This document shows positions 15,193 to 48,174 of a stretch of DNA of 64,000 bases, piece by piece. This DNA is from Tepidimicrobium xylanilyticum (GTDB taxonomy: Bacteria > Bacillota > Clostridia > Tissierellales > Tepidimicrobiaceae), in NCBI RefSeq assembly GCF_900106765.1, contig NZ_FNNG01000008.1:1-64000 (forward strand). The letters are read 5' to 3'. The position numbers were made by a program, and so were the translations under genes. Numbering within the stretch: the stretch's first letter is position 1; each line of letters begins with the position of its first letter. The notes under the pieces are model-generated. The model worked only from the letters and a program-made list of their open reading frames with translations. It did no database searches and was not told where the DNA came from.

Positions 15193-16803
15193 ATGGATAT
15201 AGCGTTACCAGTATTAGGTGGGTTAGGACTTTTTTTATATGGTATGAATATAATGGGTGTAGGCTTACAAAAAGCTGCAGGAGAAAGATTAAAGAGATTG
15301 ATTGAGATACTGACTAATAATAGGCTAATGGGCGTTTTGGTAGGCACTATAGTTACTATGATAATTCAAAGTAGTAGTGCTACTACAGTAATGGTAATAG
15401 GTTTTGTTAATGCAGGCCTTATGACTTTGCACCAGGCTGTTGGGGTAATTTTTGGTGCTAACATAGGTACTACTGTGACGGCCCAATTAATCGCATTTAA
15501 CTTAACGGATTTTGCACCATTAGCCGTGGCTGCAGGAGTTGGAACTTGGTTAGTAGCATCGAAAAAAAGGACAAAGAGTATTGCTGAAATATTGATAGGT
15601 TTTGGGATTCTTTTCATAGGCATGGATATGATGGGCAGTGGGCTGAAACCATTAGCTGACAATCCTGTATTTACGAATATAATGATTAGATTAGAAGATC
15701 CATTTTTGGGAATATTAGTTGGTTTAGGATTAACAACTATTTTGCAAAGCAGTAGTGCTTCTATAGGATTGTTGCAGGCGCTAGCTTCCCAAAGGCTTAT
15801 AAATATAAATATAGCTTTTCCCATACTATTTGGAGATAATATAGGAACTACAACTACAGCATTAATTTCCAGTATAGGAGCTAATAAGACTGCTAAAAGA
15901 GCTGCGGTTCTACATTTTTTGTTCAATTTAATTGGTACTATCATATTCGTCACTATACTTAAGAATCCTATACAATATTTAGTATTAAAAATTTCCCCAT
16001 ACGATATTAAAAGACAAATTGCTAATGCCCATACATTGTTTAATCTTATAAATGTAGTTATCCAGCTTCCTTTTTCTAACTTATTGGTAAAAGCAGCAAT
16101 GAAAATAGTTCCTGGAGATGTGGAAGAGGTAACTGAGGCAGGATTAAAGTTTTTGGATTCAAGAATAATTGAGACTCCTTCAATTGCTTTAGGGCAAGCA
16201 ACTAAAGAAGTTCTTCGAATGGGCAAAATAGTAGCAGACAATTTAAAAACAGCTACAAATGCATTTTTGAATAAGGATGAAAAATTAACTCAGGAAGTGT
16301 TTAATCAAGAAAAAATTATTAATAGATTAGAAAGCGACATAGTTGAGTATCTAGTAGAACTTTCTAATGCTCCATTAACAGAAGCACAGCATGCCCAGGT
16401 GAGTATATTGATAAACGTTATAAATGATATAGAAAGAGTGGGAGACCACGCAGATAACATTGCAGAATTAGCTCAAACAGCAATAGATGATGAGTTGGAT
16501 TTTTCAGAAGATGCTATCGGAGATTTCAAAGTTATTTCATCTAAAGGTCAAGAAGTGTTTATTAAATCTTTAGAGGCTTTGAAGGATGCGGATTTAGACA
16601 AGGCAAGGGATGTGCTTAAGATAGAAGAAGAAATTGACGCTTTGGAAAAAGAATATAGGGAAGGTCATATACAAAGATTAAATAAACATTTATGTTTACC
16701 AAGTTCTGGAGCAGTGTTTTTGGATTTGTTGAGCAATTTTGAGAGAGTTTCGGACCATTCGTCAAATATAGCCTTATACGTATTGGATGAGTTAAAAAAT
16801 TAA
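15193..16803 (+). CDS. Na+/Pi-cotransporter family protein with PhoU-like tail
   Basis: A 536-residue membrane protein. The N-terminal ~300 residues hold two inverted NptA-type repeats with the signature QSSSATT and QSSSASIG, in several hydrophobic segments. The C-terminal ~200 residues are helical and PhoU-like (RVGDHADNIAELA, RVSDHSSNIALYV). The family imports phosphate with sodium; bacterial members of this fused type may also act in regulation, so the physiological role is inferred. AGGAGG precedes ATG 15193. A terminator follows directly. Confidence 0.9.
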   Translation: MDIALPVLGGLGLFLYGMNIMGVGLQKAAGERLKRLIEILTNNRLMGVLVGTIVTMIIQSSSATTVMVIGFVNAGLMTLHQAVGVIFGANIGTTVTAQLIAFNLTDFAPLAVAAGVGTWLVASKKRTKSIAEILIGFGILFIGMDMMGSGLKPLADNPVFTNIMIRLEDPFLGILVGLGLTTILQSSSASIGLLQALASQRLININIAFPILFGDNIGTTTTALISSIGANKTAKRAAVLHFLFNLIGTIIFVTILKNPIQYLVLKISPYDIKRQIANAHTLFNLINVVIQLPFSNLLVKAAMKIVPGDVEEVTEAGLKFLDSRIIETPSIALGQATKEVLRMGKIVADNLKTATNAFLNKDEKLTQEVFNQEKIINRLESDIVEYLVELSNAPLTEAQHAQVSILINVINDIERVGDHADNIAELAQTAIDDELDFSEDAIGDFKVISSKGQEVFIKSLEALKDADLDKARDVLKIEEEIDALEKEYREGHIQRLNKHLCLPSSGAVFLDLLSNFERVSDHSSNIALYVLDELKN

Positions 16804-16838: not shown

Positions 16839-16867
16839 TTGTCTTTATAAAAAAATTATAATATAAT
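16839..16867 (+). promoter_or_regulatory. promoter of the glycine riboswitch/grd operon
   Basis: TTGTCT (16839-16844), a 17-base spacer and TATAAT (16862-16867). This puts the transcript start near 16874, about 35 bases before the first glycine aptamer. Confidence 0.8.
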
Positions 16868-16910
16868 AGCCATGGAATGTGAAAAAAACAACAAAATAAG
16901 GATATCGGAT

Positions 16911-17088
16911 GAAAAGTGCGGGAGAGACCAAAATTATTTTGGCGCCGAAGGATTAAGTCATAAAACTTGCCATTTTATGATGACGATCTCAGGCAAAAGA
17001 ACCGTACTTTGACGAAACTCTGAAAAGCGATAAGCACCGAAGGAGCAATCCATTATTAATGGAGAAACTCTCAGGTTTTTGACAGAGT
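16911..17088 (+). promoter_or_regulatory. tandem glycine riboswitch (two aptamers)
   Basis: Two glycine aptamers in series. Aptamer 1 spans about 16911-17010, with GCGGGAGAGACC, GGCGCCGAAGGA and ATCTCAGGCAAAAGAACCG. Aptamer 2 spans about 17011-17088, with GACGAAACTCTG, AGCACCGAAGGAGCAA and GAAACTCTCAGG. The P1 helix of aptamer 2 is CTCTG (17018-17022) with CAGAG (17083-17087). The same CAGAG is the start of the terminator 5' arm, so glycine binding should prevent termination (ON switch). It precedes the glycine reductase operon, a logical target. Confidence 0.95.
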
Positions 17089-17125
17089 AGAGGGCAGCTA
17101 GTGTTTCCTTCTATTCTGTTTTTTT
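17082..17125 (+). terminator. riboswitch-controlled terminator
   Basis: ACAGAGTAGAGGG (17082-17094) pairs over 13 positions, two of them G-U, with CCTTCTATTCTGT (17107-17119), followed by seven T. The 5' arm shares five bases with P1 of aptamer 2, so the two structures exclude each other. Confidence 0.92.
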
Positions 17126-17400
17126 ATGTTTTAAATCAATGTAATTTAGGGTAAACTAATTAATGTATGAGTTTTAATAAACAAATCTTGCCTTATGGAA
17201 AATATTTTATTATCTTTTTAATAGAAGTATTTCTCATAAATTGCCTTTCTGCAGAATAGATGGGGGATTACATAGCTAAAGTGGGAATCTAACTTTTCAA
17301 GATGCAAGTCATGATAGAAGTATTATCAATTAGCAGTCCCGGATTATTTTAACTAAATTTAAGTAAAGGATTATTATAATTATTAAAGGAGGAAAAAACT
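17126..17400 (+). other. long untranslated leader between riboswitch and trxB
   Basis: About 275 bases with no credible open frame. It ends in AAAGGAGG just before trxB. I see no second promoter of consensus quality and no clear hairpin, so the reason for the long leader is unknown. Confidence 0.5.
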
Positions 17401-18339
17401 ATGATTTATGATGTTGTTGTAATAGGAGCGGGTCCTGCAGGTTTGGCTGCTGGATTATATGCTTCTAGATCTAGGCTAAAGACTTTGATAGTGGAAAAGG
17501 AAAAGGCGGGGGGACAAATAGCTAAAACTGCAGAAGTAGCAAATTACCCCGGCTCCATTGAAAATGCCACTGGGCCAACCCTTATAGCTAGAATGGTGGA
17601 ACAGGTAGATGAATTTGGAGCTGAAAGGGTTATTGACACAATTAAAGAGGTAGAATTAGAAGGCAATATTAAAGTAATAAAAGGAGAAAAGGGCGAGTAT
17701 CAAGCTAAAACCGTAATAATTGCAACAGGAGCAAATCCAAGACCAATAGGCTGTCCTGGAGAAAAAGAATTGACAGGTAGAGGAGTTTCTTATTGTGCTA
17801 CATGTGATGCGGCCTTCTTTGAAGATATGGAAGTTTATGTAGTTGGTGGAGGAGATACTGCGGTAGAAGAGGGAATGTACTTAACTAAGTTTGCTAGAAA
17901 AGTTACAATAATCCACAGGAGAGATGAATTAAGAGCTGCAAAATCCATCCAAGAAAAGGCCTTTAATAATGATAAGATAGAATTCATGTGGGATACTGTA
18001 GTAGAAGAAATAAAAGGCGATGGAATTGTTGAGTCCATGGTTGTTAGAAATGTAAAAACTGGAGAAATTAAGGAAATATTTGCGGATGAAGAGGATGGAA
18101 CTTTTGGAATATTCCCATTCATTGGATTTATACCAGCTACTGATCTATTTGAAGGCAAAGTAGAAATGAAAGATGGTTATATAGTAACTGATGAAGAAAT
18201 GAGAACTAATATCCCAGGAGTTTTTGCTGCAGGCGATGTTAGGGTAAAATCATTAAGACAAGTTGTTACAGCAACTGCCGATGGAGCAATAGCAGCTGTT
18301 CAGGCTGAAAAATATATAAATGAAACTTTTAATGATTAA
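17401..18339 (+). CDS. trxB: thioredoxin reductase
   Basis: NADPH-dependent flavoprotein that reduces thioredoxin, the electron donor of glycine reductase. The 312-residue protein has the FAD motif VIGAGPAGLAAGLYA, the redox-active pair Cys132/Cys135 in SYCATCDAAFF, the NADPH motif VGGGDTAVEEG and the FAD-distal GVFAAGDVR. It is the first gene of trxB-trxA-grdEABCD, behind the glycine riboswitch. AAAGGAGG precedes ATG 17401. Confidence 0.96.
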   Translation: MIYDVVVIGAGPAGLAAGLYASRSRLKTLIVEKEKAGGQIAKTAEVANYPGSIENATGPTLIARMVEQVDEFGAERVIDTIKEVELEGNIKVIKGEKGEYQAKTVIIATGANPRPIGCPGEKELTGRGVSYCATCDAAFFEDMEVYVVGGGDTAVEEGMYLTKFARKVTIIHRRDELRAAKSIQEKAFNNDKIEFMWDTVVEEIKGDGIVESMVVRNVKTGEIKEIFADEEDGTFGIFPFIGFIPATDLFEGKVEMKDGYIVTDEEMRTNIPGVFAAGDVRVKSLRQVVTATADGAIAAVQAEKYINETFND

Positions 18340-18362: not shown

Positions 18363-18680
18363 ATGGTAGAGTTAACTAGAGATAACTTTGAAGAAGAGGT
18401 TTTAAAGGCAGAAGGACCAGTATTAGTGGATTATTGGGGACCAACTTGTGAACCTTGTAAAGCTTTAATGCCTCATATTGAAGAAATGGCAGAAAAGTAT
18501 GGTGATAAGGTCAAATTCTGTTCATTAGACATTACAAAAGCAAGGAGACTAGCAATAAAGCAAAAAGTAATGGGATTACCAGCTATTGTTATCTATAAGG
18601 ATGGAGAAGAAGTAGAAAGATTAGCTGAAGCTGAAGCAACAGCAACTGCTGTAGAAGAAATGGTTAAAAAGTATGTTTAA
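18363..18680 (+). CDS. trxA: thioredoxin, glycine-reductase type
   Basis: A 105-residue thioredoxin that passes electrons from TrxB to glycine reductase, resolving the selenide-sulfide of GrdA. The active site is WGPTCEPC (Cys29, Cys32) instead of the classical WCGPC; altered sites are known for thioredoxins of amino-acid-fermenting anaerobes. The cis-proline loop is MGLPAIVIYKDGEEV. Its place between trxB and grdE fits this dedicated role. A 13-bp hairpin without a T-tract follows (18685-18716). Confidence 0.95.
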   Translation: MVELTRDNFEEEVLKAEGPVLVDYWGPTCEPCKALMPHIEEMAEKYGDKVKFCSLDITKARRLAIKQKVMGLPAIVIYKDGEEVERLAEAEATATAVEEMVKKYV

Positions 18681-18716: not shown

Positions 18717-18749
18717 TAGATGTTCCAATAATAAGGGGAGGTGAACTAT

Positions 18750-20036
18750 ATGCGTCTTGAATTAGGCCATGTGTTTATTAAAGATGCTCAATTTGGTAAT
18801 GAAACCAAAGTTGAAAATGGGGTGCTATATGTAAATAAAGAAGAATTAATTGCACTAATTAAGGAAGACGAGCACCTAAAAGAGGTAGACGTGGACATTG
18901 CAAGACCAGGTGAAAGTGTAAGAATTACTCCTGTTAAGGATGTAGTTGAACCAAGAGTTAAGGTAGAAGGACCAGGAGGAGTTTTCCCAGGAATACTATC
19001 CAAGGTTGATGTGGTAGGAAGTGGAAAGACCCATGTACTAAAAGGTTGTACAGTTATGACTACTGGGAAGATAGTAGGTTTCCAAGAAGGTATTGTAGAC
19101 ATGACAGGACCAGGAGCAGAATATACTCCATTCTCAAAAACTGTGAATGTAGTATTAAAATGCGAACCTGTTGATGGATTAAAGCAACACGACCATGAAA
19201 GAGCTGTAAGATTAGCAGGCTTTAAAGCAGCAGCTTATCTTGCTGAAGCAGCTAGAAACCTTACTCCGGATGAAGTAGAAGTATATGAAGTAGATACTCT
19301 ATTAGAAAGCATTAGGAAATATCCAGATCTTCCAAAGATAGGATATGTTCAAATGCTTCAAACGCAAGGGTTACTTCATGATACCTATGTATATGGGGTA
19401 GATGCTAAGCAAATAGTACCAACCATAATGTACCCAACTGAAATTATGGACGGTGCAATCGTAAGTGGTAACTGTGTATCTGCATGCGACAAGAATACAA
19501 CTTACCATCAAATGAACAATCCAGTTATTCACGACTTATTAGCAGTTCATGGTAAAGAGCTTAACTTCGTAGGAGTTATAATCACCAATGAAAATGTGTA
19601 CCTAGCTGATAAGGAAAGGTCATCAAACTGGACAGCTAAATTAGCTGAGTATCTAGGTTTAGATGGTGTTATAATCTCACAAGAAGGATTTGGAAACCCA
19701 GATACTGACTTAATTATGAACTGTAGAAAGATTGAAGAAAAAGGCATCAAAACAGTTATTATTACTGACGAATATGCAGGTAGAGACGGTGCTAGCCAAT
19801 CATTAGCAGATGCTCATCCATCAGCAAATGCAGTAGTAACTGGAGGAAATGCTAATGAACTTATAGAATTGCCTCCAATGGATAAAATAATTGGTTCATT
19901 AGAATATGTAGATATTATTGCTGGAGGTTTTGATGGAAGCCTTAGAGAAGATGGTTCAATATTAGTTGAACTACAAGCTATTACAGGCGCAACAAATGAA
20001 ATAGGATTTAACAAGATGTCAGCAAGAGGATATTAA
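18750..20036 (+). CDS. grdE: glycine reductase protein B proprotein GrdE
   Basis: Precursor of the two small subunits of the glycine-specific protein B, which binds glycine through a pyruvoyl group and with GrdB delivers it to GrdA. The cleavage site is Asn241-Cys242 in VSGNCVSACDKNTTYHQ; Cys242 becomes the pyruvoyl group in characterised homologues. I start at ATG 18750 (MRLELGHVFIKDAQFGNETK), 8 bases after GGGGAGG; an in-frame GTG at 18741 overlaps that site. At 428 residues it has normal family length. Confidence 0.96.
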   Translation: MRLELGHVFIKDAQFGNETKVENGVLYVNKEELIALIKEDEHLKEVDVDIARPGESVRITPVKDVVEPRVKVEGPGGVFPGILSKVDVVGSGKTHVLKGCTVMTTGKIVGFQEGIVDMTGPGAEYTPFSKTVNVVLKCEPVDGLKQHDHERAVRLAGFKAAAYLAEAARNLTPDEVEVYEVDTLLESIRKYPDLPKIGYVQMLQTQGLLHDTYVYGVDAKQIVPTIMYPTEIMDGAIVSGNCVSACDKNTTYHQMNNPVIHDLLAVHGKELNFVGVIITNENVYLADKERSSNWTAKLAEYLGLDGVIISQEGFGNPDTDLIMNCRKIEEKGIKTVIITDEYAGRDGASQSLADAHPSANAVVTGGNANELIELPPMDKIIGSLEYVDIIAGGFDGSLREDGSILVELQAITGATNEIGFNKMSARGY

Positions 20037-20072: not shown

Positions 20073-20552
20073 ATGTCACTATTTGATGCTAGTAAGAAAG
20101 TCATCATCATTGGTGATAGAGATGGCATACCAGGACCAGCCATCGAAGAGTGTGTTAAGACTACAGAAGCTGAAGTAGTGTTCTCATCTACTGAGTGCTT
20201 TGTCTGAACTGCCGCAGGAGCAATGGACCTAGAAAATCAAAAGAGGGTTAAAGATTTGGCTGAAAAATACGGCCCAGAAAATATAATCGTATTAATAGGT
20301 GGAGCAGAAGCTGAAGCAGCTGGATTAGCAGCTGAAACAGTAACTGCAGGAGACCCAACTTTTGCAGGTCCATTGGCAGGAGTCCAGTTAGGACTTAGAG
20401 TATATCATGCTGTAGAACCAGAATTCAAAGAATCAGTAGACCCAGCTGTTTACGATGAACAAATTGGTATGATGGAAATGGTTCTAAATGTTGATGAAAT
20501 AGTCGAGGAAGTAAAAGGTATAAGAGAAGAATACGGTAAATACAATGACTAG
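20073..20552 (+). CDS. grdA: glycine reductase selenoprotein A (contains selenocysteine)
   Basis: Small selenoprotein that carries the carboxymethyl group from protein B to protein C as a selenoether. The 159-residue frame runs from ATG 20073 and contains one in-frame TGA at 20205-20207, codon 45, in the motif [14 protein letters not shown]. That motif, with Cys42 near the selenocysteine, is diagnostic for GrdA, so the TGA is recoding and not a nonsense mutation. Automatic callers will give only a C-terminal fragment starting at 20223. The upstream site is GAAAGGATG. Confidence 0.97.
20205..20207 (+). other. selenocysteine UGA codon of grdA
   Basis: In-frame TGA at codon 45 between FV and TAAGAMD, the conserved Sec position of GrdA. 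The sequence just 3' gives no hairpin as clear as the one in grdB. Confidence 0.95.
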
Positions 20553-20584: not shown

Positions 20585-21895
20585 ATGGCTAAAATTAAAG
20601 TTGTTCATTATATAAATCAATTCTTTGCTGGAATTGGCGGCGAAGAAAAAGCAGATATTAAGCCAGAAATTAGAGAAGAAATTGTTGGACCAGGTATGGC
20701 TATAAATACAGGATTTAAAGGAGAGGCTGAAATAGTTGCAACTGTCATCTGTGGTGACAGCTATTTCAACGAAAATGTTGAAGAAGCAAAAGCTGAAATA
20801 CTAGAGATGGTTAAGAAATATGAACCAGACCTATTCATAGCTGGACCAGCTTTTAATGCTGGAAGATATGGAGTGGCCTGTGGTACAATTGCAGATGCAG
20901 TACAAAATGAACTAGGAATCCCTTCTTTAACTGGAATGTATGTTGAAAACCCTGGAGCAGATATGTTCAAGAAGAACGTATATATAGTATCAACCAAGAA
21001 CTCTGCTGCAGGAATGAGGGATGCTGTTAAGAAAATGGTCCCATTGGCATTGAAATTAGCTAAAGGTGAGGAAGTAAGTACTCCTGAAGAAGAAGGTTAT
21101 ATACCAAGAGGAATTAGGAAGAATTACTTTACCGATAAGAGGGGTTCTCAAAGAGCAGTTGAGATGTTACTCAAGAAACTTAGAGGAGAAGAGTTCGTTA
21201 CTGAATTCCCAATGCCAGACTTTGACAGGGTTGACCCAAATCCTGCAGTTAAGGATATAACAAAGGCTACTATTGCTATAGTAACATCTGGTGGTATAGT
21301 ACCAAAAGGAAATCCTGATCACATTGAATCCTCATCAGCCTCCAAATATGGCAAATATGATATAGCAGAATTTGATAATTTAACCAGCAGTACTCATGAA
21401 ACAGCTCACGGTGGATATGACCCAGTTTATGCAAATGAAGATGCAGACAGGGTTATTCCAGTAGATGTACTAAGAGAAATGGAAAAAGAAGGAAAGATCG
21501 GCAAACTTCACAGATACTTCTATACTACTGTAGGTAATGGTACTGCAGTAGCAAATGCTAAAAAGTTTGCTGAGGAAATTGGTAAGGAATTAAAGGAAGA
21601 CGGAGTGGACGCAGTTATACTAACTTCCACCTGAGGTACCTGTACACGTTGCGGTGCAACGATGGTAAAAGAAATAGAAAGAGCAGGAATACCTGTAGTT
21701 CACATGTGTACTGTAGTGCCAATTTCACTTACTGTAGGGGCTAATAGGATTGTACCAACGATTGCTATACCTCACCCACTAGGAAATCCAAGCTTAGATC
21801 CTAAAGAAGAAAAGGCTCTAAGAAGAGCTTTAGTTGAAAAAGCATTAAAGGCTTTAACAACCGAAGTAGATGGTCAAACAGTATTTGAAGATTAG
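20585..21895 (+). CDS. grdB: glycine reductase protein B selenoprotein subunit GrdB
   Basis: Large subunit of the substrate-specific protein B. The 436-residue frame contains one in-frame TGA at 21632-21634, codon 350, in LTSTUGTCTRCGATMVKEIE, the conserved Sec position of the family. The reading frame continues unchanged on both sides and ends at TAG 21895, so an ORF split here would be wrong. The start ATG 20585 follows GAGGGGGG. A hairpin with a GGT loop begins 12 bases after the UGA. A strong intercistronic hairpin separates it from grdC. Confidence 0.97.
21632..21661 (+). promoter_or_regulatory. selenocysteine UGA of grdB with SECIS-like hairpin
   Basis: The UGA at 21632-21634 is followed by CGTTGC (21647-21652), loop GGT (21653-21655) and GCAACG (21656-21661). 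The apical loop is 18 bases beyond the UGA and contains GGU, both expected of a bacterial SECIS recognised by SelB. Function is inferred. Confidence 0.75.
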
Positions 21896-21903
21896 TATAT
21901 AAA

Positions 21904-21939
21904 ACTTAAAATGGGTGATGAAAATCACCCATTTTAAGT
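21904..21939 (+). repeat. intercistronic hairpin grdB/grdC
   Basis: A perfect 16-bp stem, ACTTAAAATGGGTGAT / ATCACCCATTTTAAGT, closed by a GAAA tetraloop. There is no T-run, so it is not a standard terminator; a role as processing or stability element separating the protein B and protein C genes is inferred. Confidence 0.85.
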
Positions 21940-21977
21940 ATAAAAATAAATATGATATAATTTTTGGAGGTGTAAAT

Positions 21978-23522
21978 ATGAATTATCCTGTAGTAAAAGG
22001 AACTAGTTATATTTTAGTTCATGCTGAAGATATGGTTATCCATAATGGAACTACCCAAACTACAGAAAGAGTTATAAACCCAGATTCCGAATATCTAAAA
22101 AAGTTACCAAACCATTTACGTAGTTTTGAAGAAGCTGTAAACTATTTACCAAACCAAGTTTATATAGGAAACTATAGACCAGACGATTTAAGAAACCACC
22201 CTCAACCTTGGTATCAAAATCCATTAAAAGATGCAGAAAGATTTGGTAGATATGGAGAAATAATGCCTGAAGATGAGTTTGTTGGACTTATTAAAATAGC
22301 AGATGTGTTCGATTTAGTTAAGTTAACTAAGGAGTTCACTGAAGAAGTGAAGGCAAAATTTGAAGTTCATCCAATACTAAAGGGTAGAGAAGATTTAATA
22401 TCCAGACTTAAAACTGGAGATGAGCTAGAGGAAATTGAAAAGTTAATAAATGAACAAGGTGCAGAACCTCTAATTACAGGTGGTAAGACTGTAGGCTGTG
22501 TAAAGAGGGCCCATGATGTTGATGAAAATCTAAGTGCACATGTTATATTTGAAAATCTAGTATCTAAAGCTTCTGCAATTTTAGCTGGATTAAACCTAAT
22601 TGCTAAAAATGATTTCAATCCTGATGATGTAGAGTATGTTATAGAGTGTTCAGAAGAAGCTTGTGGAGATATGAATCAAAGGGGTGGAGGAAACTTTGCT
22701 AAATCTATAGCTGAATTAGTTGGATTCAAAAATGCAACTGGTTCAGATACTAGAGGATTCTGTGCGGCTCCAACTCATGCTTTGATAGTAGCTTCTTCTT
22801 TAGTTAAGTCTGGGGCTTTCAAGAATGTAGTTGTTATAGCTGGTGGTTCTACTGCTAAGTTAGGTATGAATGGAAAGAGCCACGTAGAGAAGGACATGCC
22901 AATCCTTGAAGATGTAATTGGTGGCTTTGCAGTTCTTGTATCGGAAAACGATGGTGTAAATCCAATTTTAAGAACTGACTTAATAGGAAGACATACTGTT
23001 GGTACAGGTTCTTCACCGCAAGCAGTAATGAGTGCTTTAGTTACTGCACCATTAGAAAAGGGTAACTTAAAGATAACTGATATAGATAGATATTCTGTTG
23101 AGATGCAAAATCCAGATGTAACTAAGCCGGCAGGAGCTGGAGACGTGCCAAATGCAAACTACAAGATGATAGGTGCATTGGGTGTAATGAGAAAAGATAT
23201 TGAAAGAGCACAAATAAATGATTTCATTCTAGAACATGGAATGGAAGGTTGGGCACCAACACAAGGGCATATTCCATCAGGAGTACCTTATGTAGGATTT
23301 GCTAGAGAAGATATGTTGGAAGGCAAAATAAATAGAGCCATGATCGTTGGAAAGGGTAGTCTATTCTTAGGAAGAATGACTAATTTATTTGATGGAGTAT
23401 CTATAGTAATGGAAAGGAATCCAGGCAAGGCAGAAGAAGAAAAAGGTATCTCTGAAGAGGAAGTTAGAAAACTTGTAGCTGAAGCTATGAGAGATTTTGC
23501 TTCTCATCTACTTCAGAATTAG
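21978..23522 (+). CDS. grdC: glycine reductase protein C beta subunit GrdC
   Basis: Beta subunit of protein C, which receives the carboxymethyl-selenoether of GrdA and, with GrdD, releases acetyl phosphate. The 514-residue protein has a beta-ketoacyl-synthase-like (FabH-type) core with ECSEEACGDMNQRGGGNFAK and GFCAAPTHALIVASS. I start at ATG 21978 (MNYPVVKGTSYILVHAED), 6 bases after GGAGGTG; the longer frame from 21915 runs through the intercistronic hairpin. grdD follows 10 bases later. Confidence 0.95.
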   Translation: MNYPVVKGTSYILVHAEDMVIHNGTTQTTERVINPDSEYLKKLPNHLRSFEEAVNYLPNQVYIGNYRPDDLRNHPQPWYQNPLKDAERFGRYGEIMPEDEFVGLIKIADVFDLVKLTKEFTEEVKAKFEVHPILKGREDLISRLKTGDELEEIEKLINEQGAEPLITGGKTVGCVKRAHDVDENLSAHVIFENLVSKASAILAGLNLIAKNDFNPDDVEYVIECSEEACGDMNQRGGGNFAKSIAELVGFKNATGSDTRGFCAAPTHALIVASSLVKSGAFKNVVVIAGGSTAKLGMNGKSHVEKDMPILEDVIGGFAVLVSENDGVNPILRTDLIGRHTVGTGSSPQAVMSALVTAPLEKGNLKITDIDRYSVEMQNPDVTKPAGAGDVPNANYKMIGALGVMRKDIERAQINDFILEHGMEGWAPTQGHIPSGVPYVGFAREDMLEGKINRAMIVGKGSLFLGRMTNLFDGVSIVMERNPGKAEEEKGISEEEVRKLVAEAMRDFASHLLQN

Positions 23523-23532
23523 AGGTGATAAA

Positions 23533-24717
23533 ATGGCGGAAAAGAATATTAAACAAATGATTGGAAAAGTATTTTCCGATATTGCAGATGCAGTTGAAAC
23601 TGGTCAATTTGGTGAGAAGGTAAGAGTTGGTTTAACTACCTTGGGAAGTGAACATGGTGTAGATAATTTGGTTAAAGGTGCAGAAATAGCTCAAGAAAGG
23701 GATCCATCCATAGAGGTAGTATTAATTGGACCAAAGGTTGATTCAAAATTAACTCAAGTTGTAGTTGATTCGGAAGATGAAGGCTACAAGATAATGGAAG
23801 AAATGTTGGATAGTGGCGATCTGGATGCTTGTGTTACAATGCACTATAGTTTCCCAATAGGAGTTTCTACTGTAGGTAGGGTGATAACTCCAGGTAAGGG
23901 TAAGGAGATGACCATTGCAACTACTACAGGGACCTCATCACCTCATAGGGTCGAGGCTATGGTTATAAATGGGATTAGTGGTATAATAGCAGCAAAGGCT
24001 ATGGGGGTTAAAAATCCAACTGTTGGAATATTAAATGTAGATGGTGCAAGACAAGTTGAAAGAGCCTTTAAAGAATTGATCAATAACGGCTATGAAATCA
24101 ATTTAACTGAGTCCATGAGATCCGATGGTGGATGTGTAATGAGAGGTAATGATTTACTAGCTGGAGTACCAGATGTAATGGTTACCGACACATTAACTGG
24201 AAATATATTGATGAAAGTATTTTCATCCTATACAACTGGTGGAAGCTATGAATCCTTAGGCTATGGCTATGGTCCAGGAATTGGTGAAGGATATGAAAGA
24301 GTAATATTAATCCTTTCAAGAGCATCAGGAATCCCTGTAGTTGCCAATGCTATTAGTTATGGTGCACGATTAATTAAAGGCAATTTAAAGAAAATAGTTA
24401 AAGAAGAATTTGAAAAGGCTAATAAAGCAGGATTGAAGGAGATATTAAAGGGATTAACTAAGGATACTAAGAGAGCTGCAGATGAAGATGAGGAAATAGT
24501 AGCACCACCAGCAGAAACTGTGACAGGAACTATTTCCGGTATAGATATAATGGATTTAGAAGATGCTGTAAGAGTTCTATGGAAAGAAGGCATCTATGCA
24601 GAATCTGGAATGGGTTGTACAGGCCCCATTGTAATGGTAAATGAGGAAAAACTGGCAAAGGCCATTGAAATATTGTCTAAAGCAGGTTATGTAGCGGATA
24701 ATTCTAATCCTTGCTAG
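23533..24717 (+). CDS. grdD: glycine reductase protein C alpha subunit GrdD
   Basis: Alpha subunit of protein C, related to PlsX/phosphate acyltransferases. It takes the acetyl group as a thioester and phosphorolyses it to acetyl phosphate for ATP synthesis. The likely acetyl-carrying cysteine is at about residue 362 in ESGMGCTGPIVMV near the C-terminus. The 394-residue frame starts at ATG 23533 after GAGGTGATAAA, overlapping nothing once corrected from the longer frame inside grdC. Last gene of the operon, followed by a terminator. Confidence 0.95.
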   Translation: MAEKNIKQMIGKVFSDIADAVETGQFGEKVRVGLTTLGSEHGVDNLVKGAEIAQERDPSIEVVLIGPKVDSKLTQVVVDSEDEGYKIMEEMLDSGDLDACVTMHYSFPIGVSTVGRVITPGKGKEMTIATTTGTSSPHRVEAMVINGISGIIAAKAMGVKNPTVGILNVDGARQVERAFKELINNGYEINLTESMRSDGGCVMRGNDLLAGVPDVMVTDTLTGNILMKVFSSYTTGGSYESLGYGYGPGIGEGYERVILILSRASGIPVVANAISYGARLIKGNLKKIVKEEFEKANKAGLKEILKGLTKDTKRAADEDEEIVAPPAETVTGTISGIDIMDLEDAVRVLWKEGIYAESGMGCTGPIVMVNEEKLAKAIEILSKAGYVADNSNPC

Positions 24718-24930: not shown

Positions 24931-26028
24931 TTGAAAAAAAGATTATTAGCTTTACTGCTAATAGGGATTTTAGTTTTTACTGTTGTTGGGTGTTCAAGTT
25001 CTGACACGCCTTCAGAAGTAGAAGGGCCAACAGAAACAGAAGATCAAGGTGAAGCTGAGAATACACCAGCAAGCGAACCAATAAGAATAGCTATGGTAAC
25101 AGATGAAGGTGGAGTTCATGACCAATCCTTTAACCAATCAGCATGGGAAGGTTTGCAAAGAGCCCAAGAAGAACTAGGAATTGAAGTTTCTTACCAAGAA
25201 TCTCAACAAGATGCTGATTTTGCGCCTAACTTTGAAACTCTTCTAGATGCTGGAAACGATCTCATTTGGGGTATAGGCTTTAAATTAGCAGATGCTGTAT
25301 TAGATGCTGCTACAGCTAATCCAGATCAAAAATATGCAATTGTAGACCACTCCTTTGGAGATAATACTCCAGATAACGTAGTAGGTGTTATGTTTAAGGC
25401 AGAACAACCCTCCTTCCTAGTAGGATATATTGCTGGAAGGATGACAGAAACTAATAAAGTAGGTTTCGTTGGAGGTATAGCAGGAGACATAATTTGGGGA
25501 TTCGATTATGGATATCAAGCTGGAGTACAGTATGCAGCACATGAGTTAGGAAAGGAAATAGAAGTGCTTAATCAATATGCTGAATCTTTCTCCGATGTAG
25601 CTAAGGGTAAGGCTATTGCTCAGCAGATGTACCAACAAGGTGCAGATATAGTATTCCATGCTGCTGGAGATGTTGGAACAGGAGTAATCGAGGCTGCTAA
25701 AGAGCAAGGTAAATGGGCTATAGGAGTAGACAGAGATCAAAATTATCTAGCCCCAGACAATGTATTAACCTCTGCTATGAAACGTGTAGATGTTGGTGTT
25801 TATAATGTTGTAAAAGATTTAGTGGAAGGCAAGTTCCCAGGTGGACAAACTATTACTTATGGTTTAGCCGATGGTGGAGCAGTAGATATTGCACCTTCAT
25901 CAAATAAACACGTACCACAGGAGATATTAGATGCAGTTGAAGAATTAAAGCAAAAGATCATCGATGGAGAAATAGTAGTTCCATATAATGAAGCAACCTA
26001 CAAAGAATTTATAGATTCATTAAAATAA
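24931..26028 (+). CDS. BMP family nucleoside-binding lipoprotein
   Basis: Substrate-binding lipoprotein of a BMP/Med-family ABC transporter, which imports purine or pyrimidine nucleosides. Starts with TTG 24931 after AAGGGGGAG. The signal peptide ends in the lipobox VVGC (Cys21), followed by an acidic, serine-rich linker to about residue 50. The fold begins at IRIAMVTDEGGVHDQSFNQ, with VGFVGGIAGDIIWGFDYGY and IGVDRDQNYLAPDNVLTS typical of the family. It is followed by ATPase and two permease genes. Confidence 0.93.
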   Translation: MKKRLLALLLIGILVFTVVGCSSSDTPSEVEGPTETEDQGEAENTPASEPIRIAMVTDEGGVHDQSFNQSAWEGLQRAQEELGIEVSYQESQQDADFAPNFETLLDAGNDLIWGIGFKLADAVLDAATANPDQKYAIVDHSFGDNTPDNVVGVMFKAEQPSFLVGYIAGRMTETNKVGFVGGIAGDIIWGFDYGYQAGVQYAAHELGKEIEVLNQYAESFSDVAKGKAIAQQMYQQGADIVFHAAGDVGTGVIEAAKEQGKWAIGVDRDQNYLAPDNVLTSAMKRVDVGVYNVVKDLVEGKFPGGQTITYGLADGGAVDIAPSSNKHVPQEILDAVEELKQKIIDGEIVVPYNEATYKEFIDSLK

Positions 26029-26034
26029 AAAAGT

Positions 26035-26069
26035 TTAAGCAGCTCAGGCAATAGGTCTGAGCTGTTTAA
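26035..26069 (+). repeat. intercistronic hairpin lipoprotein/ATPase
   Basis: TTAAGCAGCTCAG (26035-26047) pairs with CTGAGCTGTTTAA (26057-26069), with one G-U. No T-run follows. Such hairpins commonly protect the abundant binding-protein mRNA and lower downstream expression. Confidence 0.7.
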
Positions 26070-26094
26070 TACTAGATTAGATAGGAGGAGCCCT

Positions 26095-27639
26095 GTGAAC
26101 AATATTGACTATAATACCAAGGTTATCGAAATGAAAAATATAACTAAAAAGTTCGGAGATTTTGTCGCAAACGACAATATAGATTTAGTTGTCCATAAGG
26201 GAGAAATTCATGCATTACTAGGCGAAAATGGGGCTGGAAAAACAACCTTGATGAATATCCTCTACGGATTATATCAGCCTACTTCAGGAGAGATATTTAT
26301 AAATGGTAAGAAAGTAGAGGTATCAAACCCAAATGTAGCGATTGCAAATGGAATAGGCATGGTACATCAACATTTTATGTTGGTGGACAACTTTACCGTA
26401 GTGGAAAATATAATATTAGGAATGGAACCAATTGGGAAGTTTGGTGTTGTAGACATCAATAAAGCTAGGAAAGAAGTAGAGGAACTCTCAAGCAAGTATG
26501 GCTTGTATGTAGATCCTGATGCAAAAATAGAAGATATATCTGTTGGAATGCAACAAAGGGTAGAAATTCTCAAAGCCCTATACAGAGGAGCAGATATACT
26601 TATACTAGATGAACCTACAGCAGTGCTCACACCTCAGGAAATAGAAGAAATAATTGAAATAATGAAGAATTTAACTAAGCAAGGGAAAACGATTATAATA
26701 ATCACTCACAAATTAAAGGAAATAAAGCAATCTGCTGATTACTGTACCATAATTAGAAGAGGAAAGAAAATTGGTACTGTAAAAGTAGATGATGTGACAG
26801 AAGAAGAGTTGGCATCCATGATGGTAGGTAGGGAAATAAGTTTTAAGGTAGATAAAAAGCCTGCAGAAATAGGTGATGTCATCTTAGAAATAGAGGATCT
26901 TACCGTTAAGGATAATAGAGGTTTAGATGTCGTAAAGAATCTGTCGCTAAAACTGCACAAAGGTGAGATACTAGGAATTGCAGGTGTAGATGGAAATGGA
27001 CAATCGGAATTAGTAGAAGCATTGACCGGTCTTAGAAAAGTGGAAAGTGGAAAAGTAATATTACAGGACAAAGATATAACAAATTTAACACCAAAGGAAA
27101 TAATGGAGAGTGGAATGAGCCACATTCCTGAAGATAGGCAAAAACGAGGTTTAGTTTTAGACTTTACTGTGGCAGAAAATATGATATTAGAAAATTACCA
27201 TAAAGAACCTTTCTCTAGAAAGGGTAGATTAAATCATAGAAATATCAGTCAGTTTACTGTAGAACTAATGGAGAAATTTGATGTAAGACCAAGAAATGAT
27301 AAGCTAACTGCAGGAGCCCTGTCTGGTGGGAATCAACAAAAAGTCATCTTAGCAAGGGAAATTACTAATGATCCTGAGGTGTTATTAGCTGTTCAGCCTA
27401 CAAGGGGGCTAGATGTTGGAGCTATAGAATTTGTCCATAAATATTTAGTGGAACAAAGAGATAAAGGAAAAGCTGTTTTATTAATATCCTTTGAACTAGA
27501 TGAGGTTTTAGATCTATCTGATAGGATAGCAGTAATCTACGATGGACAAATAGTAGATATAATAGCGGAGAAGGATGCAGATGAAAAAACCATTGGATTC
27601 TTAATGGCTGGAGGAGGTGTAGAGGATGAAAGGAAATAA
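26095..27639 (+). CDS. nucleoside ABC transporter ATPase (tandem ABC domains)
   Basis: A 514-residue ATPase with two ABC domains, like YufO/NupO and sugar importers of the same class. Domain 1 has Walker A GENGAGKTTL, signature SVGMQQRVEILKAL and Walker B ILILDEPTAVL. Domain 2 has a degenerate Walker A GVDGNGQSE, signature LSGGNQQKV, and a Walker B region VLLAVQPTRGLDVG that lacks the catalytic glutamate, a known feature of the family. GTG 26095 follows AGGAGGAG. It overlaps the first permease by 14 bases. Confidence 0.93.
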   Translation: MNNIDYNTKVIEMKNITKKFGDFVANDNIDLVVHKGEIHALLGENGAGKTTLMNILYGLYQPTSGEIFINGKKVEVSNPNVAIANGIGMVHQHFMLVDNFTVVENIILGMEPIGKFGVVDINKARKEVEELSSKYGLYVDPDAKIEDISVGMQQRVEILKALYRGADILILDEPTAVLTPQEIEEIIEIMKNLTKQGKTIIIITHKLKEIKQSADYCTIIRRGKKIGTVKVDDVTEEELASMMVGREISFKVDKKPAEIGDVILEIEDLTVKDNRGLDVVKNLSLKLHKGEILGIAGVDGNGQSELVEALTGLRKVESGKVILQDKDITNLTPKEIMESGMSHIPEDRQKRGLVLDFTVAENMILENYHKEPFSRKGRLNHRNISQFTVELMEKFDVRPRNDKLTAGALSGGNQQKVILAREITNDPEVLLAVQPTRGLDVGAIEFVHKYLVEQRDKGKAVLLISFELDEVLDLSDRIAVIYDGQIVDIIAEKDADEKTIGFLMAGGGVEDERK

Positions 27640-28738
27640 ATTTGTGATAACCCTTATATCCATTTTACTAGGATTGGTAATAGGAGGAATTGCTCTATCA
27701 ATAACCGGTTTTAATCCCATAGAAGCGTATAAGATAATGTTTAAGGGTGTTTTTAGCAACCCTAAGTATATTTCATGGACTATAATAAGGTCTACACCTC
27801 TTATACTTACGGGAATTTCTGTATCATTTGCCTTCAAAACGGGACTGTTTAATATTGGAGCTGAAGGTCAGTTTATTTTTGGAAGTTTGGTAGCCACATT
27901 GGTAGGTTATTTTTTTCATCTACCTCCAATAATTCATCCCATTGTGGCCTTATTAGCTGGAATTTTAGCTGGAGCCTTATGGGGTGGAATAGCAGGCTTC
28001 CTGAAATCTAAATTTGGAATCAATGAGGTTATTACGACAATAATGTTGAACTGGATAGCCTTATATTTTAGTAATTTCATGGTCTTCTGGGAACCTTTCA
28101 AAAGACCAAATAGGGATGCTTCAGAAAGGATATTAGATACTGCAAGTATCCAAATTCTAGAGAAGTGGAAAACCTCAGATGCAGGTAAGGCCTTTTTAGC
28201 AAACAATACCTTCTTAAAAGACTTTTTAAATCCTCCTGTGAATTTCGGAATTATTATCGCCATATTGGTGGCTATATTGATATGGTATATATTAAAGCAC
28301 ACCACTTTAGGCTATCAATTAAGGGCTGTAGGCTTCAATAAGGATGCAGCTGAATATGGGGGTATCAATATAAAGAGAAATACTATTTTAGCAATGATGA
28401 TAGCAGGAGCCATTTCTGGCCTATCTGGTGCTACCCAAGTTTTAGGGGTATCCAAGGAAACTGCCATATTAGCAACTATGGAAGGTTATGGATTCGATGG
28501 GATGGCAGTAGCTTTAATAGCAAATAGTAATCCACTTGCTTGTATACCAGCAGCTTTGTTATTTGGAGGTTTAAAGTATGGTGGAAGTAAGTTACAACCA
28601 ACAATGGGAGCACCTATAGAAGTCATTAACATAACCATTGGCGTGATCATAATGTTTATAGCTATGCCAAAGCTTATAAATATTATAGCGGCTTTTAGAA
28701 GTAGAAAGAGAGGTGTAGAAATTGAAAATGCTAAGTGA
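27626..28738 (+). CDS. nucleoside ABC transporter permease 1
   Basis: Membrane permease of the branched-chain/ribose (BPD_transp_2) superfamily, 370 residues, with about ten hydrophobic segments. The coupling region is TTLGYQLRAVGFNKDAAEYGG, as in YufP/NupP. GGAGGTG precedes ATG 27626. Overlaps both neighbours (ATPase by 14 bases, second permease by 17). Confidence 0.92.
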   Translation: MKGNKFVITLISILLGLVIGGIALSITGFNPIEAYKIMFKGVFSNPKYISWTIIRSTPLILTGISVSFAFKTGLFNIGAEGQFIFGSLVATLVGYFFHLPPIIHPIVALLAGILAGALWGGIAGFLKSKFGINEVITTIMLNWIALYFSNFMVFWEPFKRPNRDASERILDTASIQILEKWKTSDAGKAFLANNTFLKDFLNPPVNFGIIIAILVAILIWYILKHTTLGYQLRAVGFNKDAAEYGGINIKRNTILAMMIAGAISGLSGATQVLGVSKETAILATMEGYGFDGMAVALIANSNPLACIPAALLFGGLKYGGSKLQPTMGAPIEVINITIGVIIMFIAMPKLINIIAAFRSRKRGVEIENAK

Positions 28739-29687
28739 TTTGGGAGTGATAATTGGAATTACCTTAATGTATTCAGCACCTTTAATATACACCTCTTTAG
28801 GTGGAGTTCTATCTGAAAATGCAGGAGTAGTAAATATAGGCCTAGAAGGTATGATGACTATAGGTGCTTTTGCAGGAGCAACTGTAGCCTATTTTACACA
28901 AAATCCTTGGATTGGATTTTTAGCGGCAGGAATTGCGGGCGGACTTTTAGCTCTTCTACATGCTATTGCCTGTGTAACTTTTACAGCAGACCATGTAGTA
29001 TCAGGGATTGCGATAAATTTTATAGGACCAGGATTATCAATATTCTTAACTAAGATATTTTTTGATGGTGCAGCTATGACTATACCTTTAGATTTAGACA
29101 ATAAAATACCTAGACCATTAAATGGGTTATTTTCATCTATATCTCCCACAAACCCAACTATGGCGAGAATAGTGGATGCATTAGATTCTATTTTCAACCA
29201 ATATGCTACAGTATATATTGCACTATTACTAGTCTTAGCTGTATGGTTTTTCTTGTATAAAACTAAATTAGGACTTAGGATACGCTCGGTTGGGGAGCAT
29301 CCAAGAGCTGCAGATACCCTTGGTATCAACGTTTATAGGATAAAGTATTTAGCTGTAATTCTATCAGGCGTGCTAGCAGGTTTTGGAGGGGCAGCTATGA
29401 GCATAGCTGTAATATCGAATTATAGAGCGGCTTTAATATCAGGCCAAGGTTTTATAGCATTAGCAGCTATGATATTTGGGAAATGGAAACCTCAGGGGGC
29501 TATGTTGGGCTGTTTGTTATTTGGTGCAGCACAAGGGCTGGTAGTCTACTTAGGCAGTACTAGCTTAAACATATCTTCCCAATTGTTGGCTATGCTACCT
29601 TACATTATTACCTTAGTCGTATTAATGGGATTTGTAGGTGAAGCAAGAGGACCTAAAGCCAGTGGTATTCCCTATGAAAAAGAATAA
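28722..29687 (+). CDS. nucleoside ABC transporter permease 2
   Basis: Second permease, 321 residues, like YufQ/NupQ, with the coupling region LGLRIRSVGEHPRAADTLG and a conserved LSGVLAGFGGAAMSIA stretch. I keep TTG 28722, six bases after GAGGTG; the ATG two codons on (28728) is the alternative but is less well spaced. Together with the lipoprotein and ATPase it makes a complete importer. A terminator follows. Confidence 0.92.
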   Translation: MKMLSDLGVIIGITLMYSAPLIYTSLGGVLSENAGVVNIGLEGMMTIGAFAGATVAYFTQNPWIGFLAAGIAGGLLALLHAIACVTFTADHVVSGIAINFIGPGLSIFLTKIFFDGAAMTIPLDLDNKIPRPLNGLFSSISPTNPTMARIVDALDSIFNQYATVYIALLLVLAVWFFLYKTKLGLRIRSVGEHPRAADTLGINVYRIKYLAVILSGVLAGFGGAAMSIAVISNYRAALISGQGFIALAAMIFGKWKPQGAMLGCLLFGAAQGLVVYLGSTSLNISSQLLAMLPYIITLVVLMGFVGEARGPKASGIPYEKE

Positions 29688-29821: not shown

Positions 29822-31201
29822 ATGAAATTGGGTTATAACCTAGCTCTTGAACAAGTACAGAAATTAGTTATGACTCCAGAACTAAGACAAGCTATACAGC
29901 TACTGCAATTCAATTGTCAGGAACTTAATGAATATTTAAAACAGCAAATTGAGGAAAATCCTTTATTAGAACCAGATAATATAATTGAAGAATTCGAGAG
30001 TATAGACGATTTAAATAGTGAAGGGGAAGAAATAGATTGGAAGGAATTTATTGATAAATATGATGACTTTAGCTATAGGCCAGAAAAGGACAAAAATATT
30101 GAAGAATATAACTATGAAAATTTTATCAGTTTTTCACCTTCTCTAAAGGATAATTTATTATTCCAATTAAATGTATCACATTTGGATGATAGGTATAAAA
30201 GAATAGGAGAAGTGCTGATAGAAGCCATTGATGATAATGGGTATCTAATGGTAGATATAGAACAGGTAGCTTTAGTCCTAGGGGTCGAAGTTGAAGAAGT
30301 GGAAAGCGTTTTATCTTTTATACAAACTTTTGAACCCTTAGGAGTTGGAGCGAGAAATTTAAAGGAGTGTTTATTAATTCAGGTAAGAGCAGGTGGATTA
30401 AATAACCCAAATATAGAACTGATAATTGAGAATTATCTAGAAGATATAGCCCATAATAGGTTATTAAAAATAGCAAAGGAATTGAACTTAGATTTAAAGG
30501 AAGTACAGGATATTAGCGATTATATTAGGACATTGGAGCCCAAACCCGGGAGGGCTTTTTCTGACAATTCTGACCAGGTAAAATATATAACTCCCGATGT
30601 GACAATTGAATACATTGACGGTGAATATGTAATAATTTTAAATGATGTAACTGGTCCTAGGTTAAACATCAATAACTTTTACAAAGAATTGATAAGAAAG
30701 GGCAATGACCCAAAAGCGAAAGAATATCTTTCCGAAAAATTAAATGCTGCAATGTGGATTATTAGATGTATTGAACAGAGGCGAGCTACAATATATAATG
30801 TGGTAGAATCAATATTGAAATTTCAAAGGGAGTTCTTTGAAAAGGGTGAAAAGGCCTTAAAACCCTTAACATTAAAAGAAGTTGCTGATGATATAAATAT
30901 GCATGAGTCAACGGTAAGTAGAGCAACTAGTGGAAAATATGTTCAGACTCCAAGAGGATTATTTGAATTAAAGTACTTTTTTTCCAGTAGTCTATCTACT
31001 AATAAAGGAGAAGTATCGTCAACTAGTATTAAAGCGGTTATTAAAGAGATTATAGACGGAGAAGATCCAAAAAAACCTTATAGCGATCAGAAAATATCTG
31101 ATATTTTAAAAAAGAAAGGTATAAATATTTCAAGAAGGACTGTTGCTAAATATAGGGATGAATTAGGAATACCTTCCTCTTCCATAAGAAAAAGATATTG
31201 A
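29822..31201 (+). CDS. rpoN: RNA polymerase sigma-54 factor
   Basis: Alternative sigma factor for -24/-12 promoters that need ATP-driven activators. The 459-residue protein starts with the region I block MKLGYNLALEQVQKLVMTPE and LRQAIQLLQF, followed by an acidic linker, the core-binding domain (FEPLGVGARNLKECLLIQ), a helix-turn-helix (MHESTVSRATSGKYVQTPRG) and the RpoN box SRRTVAKYRDELGIP. Its place directly before cggR-gap is seen in other Firmicutes. I found no obvious sigma-54 promoter within the window. Confidence 0.95.
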   Translation: MKLGYNLALEQVQKLVMTPELRQAIQLLQFNCQELNEYLKQQIEENPLLEPDNIIEEFESIDDLNSEGEEIDWKEFIDKYDDFSYRPEKDKNIEEYNYENFISFSPSLKDNLLFQLNVSHLDDRYKRIGEVLIEAIDDNGYLMVDIEQVALVLGVEVEEVESVLSFIQTFEPLGVGARNLKECLLIQVRAGGLNNPNIELIIENYLEDIAHNRLLKIAKELNLDLKEVQDISDYIRTLEPKPGRAFSDNSDQVKYITPDVTIEYIDGEYVIILNDVTGPRLNINNFYKELIRKGNDPKAKEYLSEKLNAAMWIIRCIEQRRATIYNVVESILKFQREFFEKGEKALKPLTLKEVADDINMHESTVSRATSGKYVQTPRGLFELKYFFSSSLSTNKGEVSSTSIKAVIKEIIDGEDPKKPYSDQKISDILKKKGINISRRTVAKYRDELGIPSSSIRKRY

Positions 31202-47824: not shown

Positions 47825-48174
47825 GGGGGCGAAAAGGTTTCGACGGGGATATGGAAACAGGAGTAGCGAGTCGTTGTGGTCAAGCAACGTTAAAAAATGA
47901 CACTAAAAATAAACGCAGACGATAATTTAGCATTAGCTGCTTAATTATAGCAGCTCGTCCTACCCAAGAATCCCACGCCTTGGGATAGGGCGCCAACTTA
48001 GTGGGGAACCGCGCCTAGCTTTGCTTCGGGCTAGGAACGGAAGTAAGAAGCTACTGAAGCTAGAATCCTGTCAGTAGGAGTCTAGCGGAGGGAATGTCAA
48101 AATACTGACTGCGCTCGGAGAAACTCCTGTGGAAGTATTTTCGGACGTGGGTTCGACTCCCACCGCCTCCACCA
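47825..48174 (+). ncRNA. ssrA: transfer-messenger RNA
   Basis: Rescues stalled ribosomes and tags the nascent protein. The 5' end GGGGGCG pairs with CGCCTCC before the encoded ACCA at 48171-48174, the T arm is GGGTTCGACTCCC, and the 5' tRNA-like part holds GGTTTCGACGGGG. The tag frame runs from resume codon GCA 47915 to TAA 47944 and encodes ADDNLALAA, which follows the charged alanine. About 350 bases, one-piece type. smpB and rnr are directly upstream. Confidence 0.97.

Follow-up and report, generated by a model that had tools for sequence, protein, structure and literature searches.

The 64,000-nt stretch of T. xylanilyticum DNA analysed here (the window) very probably carries a glycine-dependent transcriptional ON switch in front of the genes trxBA-grdEABCD; we put the probability of this reading at about 0.9. 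Comparison with RNA families and with related loci confirmed that positions 16905-17125 of the forward strand match a tandem glycine riboswitch followed by a predicted intrinsic terminator, as had been claimed in the original prediction. The anatomy of the leader, the overlap of riboswitch and terminator, their conservation and the order of the folding energies without ligand were observed directly. Glycine binding by the riboswitch, the pairing of the two aptamers with each other and the direction and size of the glycine response are expected by analogy with homologues. A known riboswitch design is confirmed here at an energy-conserving Stickland operon of the Tissierellaceae.

The leader and the operon

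Transcription would start near 16874 from a putative sigma-A type promoter, TTGTCT-17-TATAAT (16839-16867), that agrees with the consensus in 10 of 12 positions. The -10 hexamer TATAAT is found in 20 of 21 aligned leaders, including that of the window, and the remaining one reads TAAAAT; promoter-like matches are not rare in the stretch around this site (seven, shuffled mean 3.6). Aptamer 1 (16909-17014, P1 formed by 16913-16921 with 17002-17010) scores 63.8 bits with RF00504, well over the curated cut-off of 32. Aptamer 2 (17017-17088) stays below the curated RF00504 cut-off, no hit of its own being listed up to E = 10. It was recognized from the alignment with the tandem model RF03166, which runs across both aptamers (16905-17089, 83.8 bits, E = 6.4e-18), and from pair counts over 18 loci. 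It has a P1 in which ACUCUG (17017-17022) pairs with CAGAGU (17083-17088), a P2, a P3 and an internal-loop core, and is thus the second member of a tandem. A leader-linker kink-turn is predicted from the same alignment, its helix being formed by UCG (16905-16907) and CGA (17013-17015), whose complementarity was checked.

RF03166 describes the glycine-GGAnGA variant, and the window resembles it in the alignment over the whole tandem and in a GGAUGA leader. Identity with this variant was nevertheless dropped, since the score remains below the curated cut-off of 110 and the aptamer-2 P3 core of the model differs from that of the window, CACCGAAGGAGCAA. RF00504 matches the genome once more, inside trxB (18244-18329, 18.3 bits), and this was taken as chance.

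The genes downstream of the riboswitch, all on the forward strand, follow in the order trxB-trxA-grdE-A-B-C-D, and the profile matches bear out the gene order given earlier. They are trxB for thioredoxin reductase (17401-18339; TIGR01292, 377.6 bits, cut-off 343.45), trxA (18363-18680; NF047697, 160.7 bits, cut-off 140), grdE (18741-20036), grdA for selenoprotein A (20085-20552, start approximate; NF040748, 281.4 bits, cut-off 130, with a UGA read as selenocysteine), grdB (20585-21895), grdC (21915-23522; NF040746, 836.5 bits, cut-off 450) and grdD (23497-24717; NF040747, 610.8 bits, cut-off 350). The name grdE rests on context because the best model is that of the sarcosine protein GrdG (NF040793), whose cut-off of 780 is not reached (685.3 bits). 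GrdB, read through its UGA, is of the glycine type (TIGR01917, 778.1 bits, cut-off 602.2) and falls short of the cut-off for the sarcosine protein GrdF (758.6 bits, cut-off 800); the gene contains a SECIS_4 element (21635-21672; RF01990, 65.1 bits). With a gap of 60 nt between trxA and grdE, the gene spacing suggests a single transcript for trxBA-grdEABCD. Thioredoxins linked to grd genes have an atypical active site, [G/S]C[V/E]PC (PMC10880999), and the TCEPC of the window TrxA resembles it. By TrxA, [Clostridium] ultunense (92% identity) is the closest relative with a name; two Tissierellia bins are nearer.

The genome has a second grdA (contig C4, 17188-17634) with an in-frame UGA, which lies outside any grd operon: no grd gene was seen among the 10 neighbouring ORFs scanned and no RF00504 match within the 15 kb taken.

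Competition between P1 and the terminator

The five bases CAGAG (17083-17087) were claimed to belong both to P1 of the second aptamer and to the 5' arm of a 13-bp terminator, and this stands: sequence, folds and pair counts place them in the 3' strand of P1 and in the terminator stem. The terminator (17082-17125) is built from a 5' arm at 17082-17094 and a 3' arm at 17107-17119. These form 13 bp, to which a terminal G-U and three inner pairs add, and the element ends in seven T at 17119-17125. The segment 17080-17127 folds with -22.3 kcal/mol (z = -6.2), and none of 200 shuffles was equally stable. A simple terminator scan, limited to loops of 3-8 nt and uninterrupted stems, found no terminator here; the stem has interior mismatches.

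Folds of the growing transcript from 16874, calculated with an energy model that contains neither ligand nor tertiary contacts, pair C17083 with G17022 in P1 up to a length of 17114 and with a third partner, 16879, at 17116. From 17118 onwards, C17083 is paired with 17118 in the terminator, and forcing P1 then costs 3.9-6.6 kcal/mol relative to the terminator. Since the terminator wins late without ligand and a P1 held by ligand would block it, the arrangement points to an ON switch. According to this model, transcripts would begin just past the -10 element ending at 16867, and aptamers 1 and 2 would fold one after the other, with the leader-linker kink-turn joining them. Once glycine is bound, P1 (17017-17022 with 17083-17088) would be held by the aptamer pair so that CAGAG is not free, the base of the terminator would stay incomplete and the polymerase would continue into trxB. 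Without glycine, emergence of the terminator 3' arm (about 17116-17119) would draw CAGAG into the terminator and end transcription in the U tract.

The shared bases are conserved among relatives. A TrxA scan gave 23 loci, 21 of them with an RF00504 aptamer and two, with distant TrxA relatives, without. Together with the window these make 22 leaders, 18 of the tandem type and four (L020-L023) in which aptamer 2 is a ghost stem. In the 18 tandem-type loci the fold of aptamer 2 is paired in 99.4% of 342 cells and that of the terminator in 97.4% of 234 cells; sliding the terminator partner by one to three columns lowers pairing to 45-68%. Changes on both sides of a pair occur in eight terminator cells (shuffled mean 1.9) and in five cells of the whole aptamer-2 fold (shuffled mean 1.4), counts that come from relatives that are not independent and are not to be read as probabilities. 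P1 of aptamer 2 yields little covariation evidence because it hardly varies: four of its six pairs never change, and none changed on both sides.

The overlap is also found class-wide. Among 148 genomes, 19 had a GrdA match, and upstream stretches were taken from 17 of the 18 other GrdA genomes (all but G468, whose match is weak; G526 has two matches and contributed one) as well as from the second grdA of the genome itself. RF00504 is present in 14 of the 17 stretches; of the other three, L072 and L082 are cut by a contig end, and L079 comes from G526, where the other GrdA place (contig 25) is preceded, at a distance of about 3 kb, by an RF00504 match. Taking these 14 leaders and the 22 above together, 34 of 36 show pairing of the P1 3' strand within the terminator, five of them with a ghost stem as aptamer 2 (L020-L023 and L080). 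The two misses, L006 and L078, apparently stem from the way the script cut the U tract: by eye L006, which is one of the 18 rows in the terminator pair count, pairs fully, and L078 has a longer hairpin.

A switch of this type is ordinary in the sense that it is already known. P1 of the Bacillus subtilis gcvT riboswitch likewise overlaps its terminator. That riboswitch (RF00504) shares with the window the tandem aptamers, the kink-turn and a rho-independent terminator through which glycine raises reporter activity about 17-fold, and weakening the terminator base made expression constitutive (PMC5666159); gcvT controls glycine cleavage, whereas the riboswitch of the window adjoins genes of glycine reduction. 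For the grd operon of Clostridioides difficile, a glycine riboswitch and increased transcription with glycine have been reported (PMC11477304, PMC10880999). Compared by description, the two have the same layout: a grd operon that includes trxA and trxB, preceded by a glycine riboswitch. In the window, no grdX was recognized in the interval from the riboswitch to trxB; in some relatives, by eye, grdX comes first in the leader. Among the matches listed in the open-licence literature, only PMC12674515 joins "glycine riboswitch" with the name Tissierella, Schnuerera or ultunense, in passages that deal with other organisms.

Homologous glycine switches of both directions exist (PMC12060979), and an OFF switch, in which glycine would favour termination, has to be considered. 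We regard it as highly improbable. P1, which the ligand is expected to hold in place, uses up the 5' arm of the terminator; furthermore, the downstream genes consume glycine, and the grd operon of C. difficile is induced by it (PMC11477304). Anatomy, relatives and close precedents thus back the predicted competition between P1 and terminator, and the ON direction draws its support from the anatomy, the comparison with relatives and the precedents of B. subtilis gcvT and C. difficile grd.

The state of the second aptamer

Of the 18 tandem-type loci, only L003 (34.1 bits) has an aptamer 2 that reaches the RF00504 cut-off; the other 17 stay below it, and RF00504 alone would annotate most of these tandems as singlets. 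In the window, the junctions J1/2 and J3/1 are off consensus. J1/2 differs from GGAGAG in all 18 loci, compared with GGAGAG in 19 of 23 parsed aptamer 2s phylum-wide, a count in which seven of 30 loci were left unparsed and L035, where the wrong stretch was taken, figures as lacking GGAGAG. The altered J1/2 was considered as a mark of the grd context and rejected, as GGAGAG is found in grdE-linked leaders elsewhere in the phylum (L026, L031, L038). Across the 18 loci, the core of aptamer 2 varies only by some A/G exchanges and a single C in L004. The pocket of the Vibrio cholerae aptamer II comprises A175, G176, the pair G177-C209 and U210 (PMC12060979), and the bases that we mapped to it are invariant in 18 of 18; the mapping is our own, as is the equation of G176 with G69 and of U210 with U81. 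We expect aptamer 2 to have retained glycine binding, with less certainty than for aptamer 1.

It could be argued that only aptamer 1 senses glycine and that aptamer 2 is a scaffold that provides P1 and tertiary contacts, an arrangement halfway from a tandem to a type-1 singlet, in which the 3' aptamer is a ghost. The uniform absence of GGAGAG from J1/2, the single score over the cut-off among 18 and the ghost stems in four of 22 leaders and in L080 speak for this, as does a mutation of the aptamer-2 pocket in B. subtilis that left regulation unaffected (PMC5666159). With type-1 singlets the window also has in common a consensus aptamer 1 and a following stem that feeds the terminator. Yet it is not a type-1 singlet, since its aptamer 2 is not a ghost stem: P2, P3 and the mapped pocket bases are retained, unlike in these singlets, and the P1 loop is 60 nt long and holds P2 and P3, compared with 10-14 nt in L020-L023 and L080, which do look like type-1 singlets with a ghost that still contributes its 3' strand to the terminator. 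The (near-)invariance of P2, P3 and pocket bases in 18 of 18 loci suggests selection on the site, and aptamer 2 exceeds the cut-off in seven of 14 class-wide grd leaders. Sensing by aptamer 1 alone is unlikely in our view.

At glycine-cleavage operons, aptamer 1 was found to be more conserved than aptamer 2 (PMC6944388), in a paper whose main text contains neither "grd" nor "glycine reductase". The series of full, junction-altered and ghost aptamer 2s fits this trend, and as a natural series it lends itself to measuring what the second aptamer contributes.

The Rex-like site and the spacer before trxB

Glycine control of the operon may be incomplete, considering a Rex-like site at the upstream promoter and promoter-like blocks past the terminator. 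The palindrome ATGTGAAAAAAACAACAA (16877-16894) agrees in 11 of 14 positions with a Rex consensus, and we propose it, as a hypothesis, as a candidate operator. A match of at least 11/14 is seen in 13 of 17 tandem-type loci (L014, whose contig starts too near, was left out), against a shuffled mean of 0.38 and a maximum of 3 in 500 shuffles. L003 (9) and L007 (10) score lower, and L010 and L018 scored 0 where the script had taken a later TATAAT; the alignment shows the element in both. Among 15 scored leaders, the palindrome begins 9 nt past the -10 element in 10 and 12-15 nt past it in five; in the window, which has two overlapping TATAAT, the distances are 14 nt from the first and 9 nt from the second. 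One of the four ghost leaders reaches at least 11 (L023, 12). A Rex-type DNA-binding domain is present in the genome, and grdE of C. difficile is described as a known Rex target that rose in a rex mutant (PMC11481553). Against the operator, the Rex pattern with two mismatches is common genome-wide (161 places vs 123 for the reversed pattern); the site of the window has three mismatches and is outside these 161. The 14 class-wide grd leaders hardly rise above background (mean 9.79 vs 9.47, sd 0.20), two of them reaching at least 12.

The spacer between terminator and trxB (17126-17400) has GGGTA and TTG-n20/21-TAnnnT blocks that could hypothetically be a second promoter. Sigma-A or sigma-B type starts at this place would provide thioredoxin and reductase independently of glycine, the upstream switch then governing only part of expression. 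TTG-n20/21-TAnnnT is found in 17 of 18 loci (mean 6.95, maximum 12 in 300 shuffles) and GGGTA in 15 of 18 (shuffled mean 4.29, maximum 9), both at aligned places in most loci, although it has to be taken into account that the loci are related, which inflates these counts. A sigma-B consensus matches in five of 18 loci (the window, L003, L005 and L010, and L011 at another place) against a shuffled mean of 0.20 and a maximum of 3, the count being made on sequence that includes the terminator tail and the shuffles on the part past it. The genome also has a sigB-like operon (contig C9) encoding an anti-sigma antagonist, an RsbW-like protein below its own cut-off and a sigma factor of the SigB/F/G family over its cut-off. 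The best sigma-A score, on the other hand, is on a par with that of shuffles (9.11 vs 9.00, sd 0.17), the copy in the window is weak (TTGCCT-17-TATCTT), and the thioredoxin genes of the C. difficile grd operon were not sigma-B dependent (PMC10880999). Taken together, a bypass of the switch is possible at somewhat less than even odds. By eye, the region upstream of rsbV has no full sigma-B match, and a GGGTA there lies inside the apparent terminator of the previous gene. Further structured RNA before trxB was considered and rejected, 17225-17400 being no more stable than shuffles (z = 0.66), and Rfam lists nothing past 17147 up to 17420 at E ≤ 10.

It is tempting to combine these elements into a two-input gate at the glycine-reductase leaders of this bacterial order, in which Rex at the start site would report NADH/NAD+, the riboswitch would report glycine and a promoter past the terminator would supply the thioredoxin pair independently of glycine, while aptamer 2 would be drifting from sensor to scaffold, a drift completed as a ghost stem in some relatives. 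This combined picture is doubtful because the Rex and promoter controls weigh against it.

The riboswitch is preceded immediately on its 5' side by a gene for a Na/Pi cotransporter with a PhoU-like C-terminal part (15193-16803). Immediately on the 3' side of grdD lie ABC transporter genes of the sugar/nucleoside/B6 type (24931-29687), and further along the window are a gene for a sigma-54 factor (29822-31201) and a tmRNA (47825-48174, 201.3 bits).
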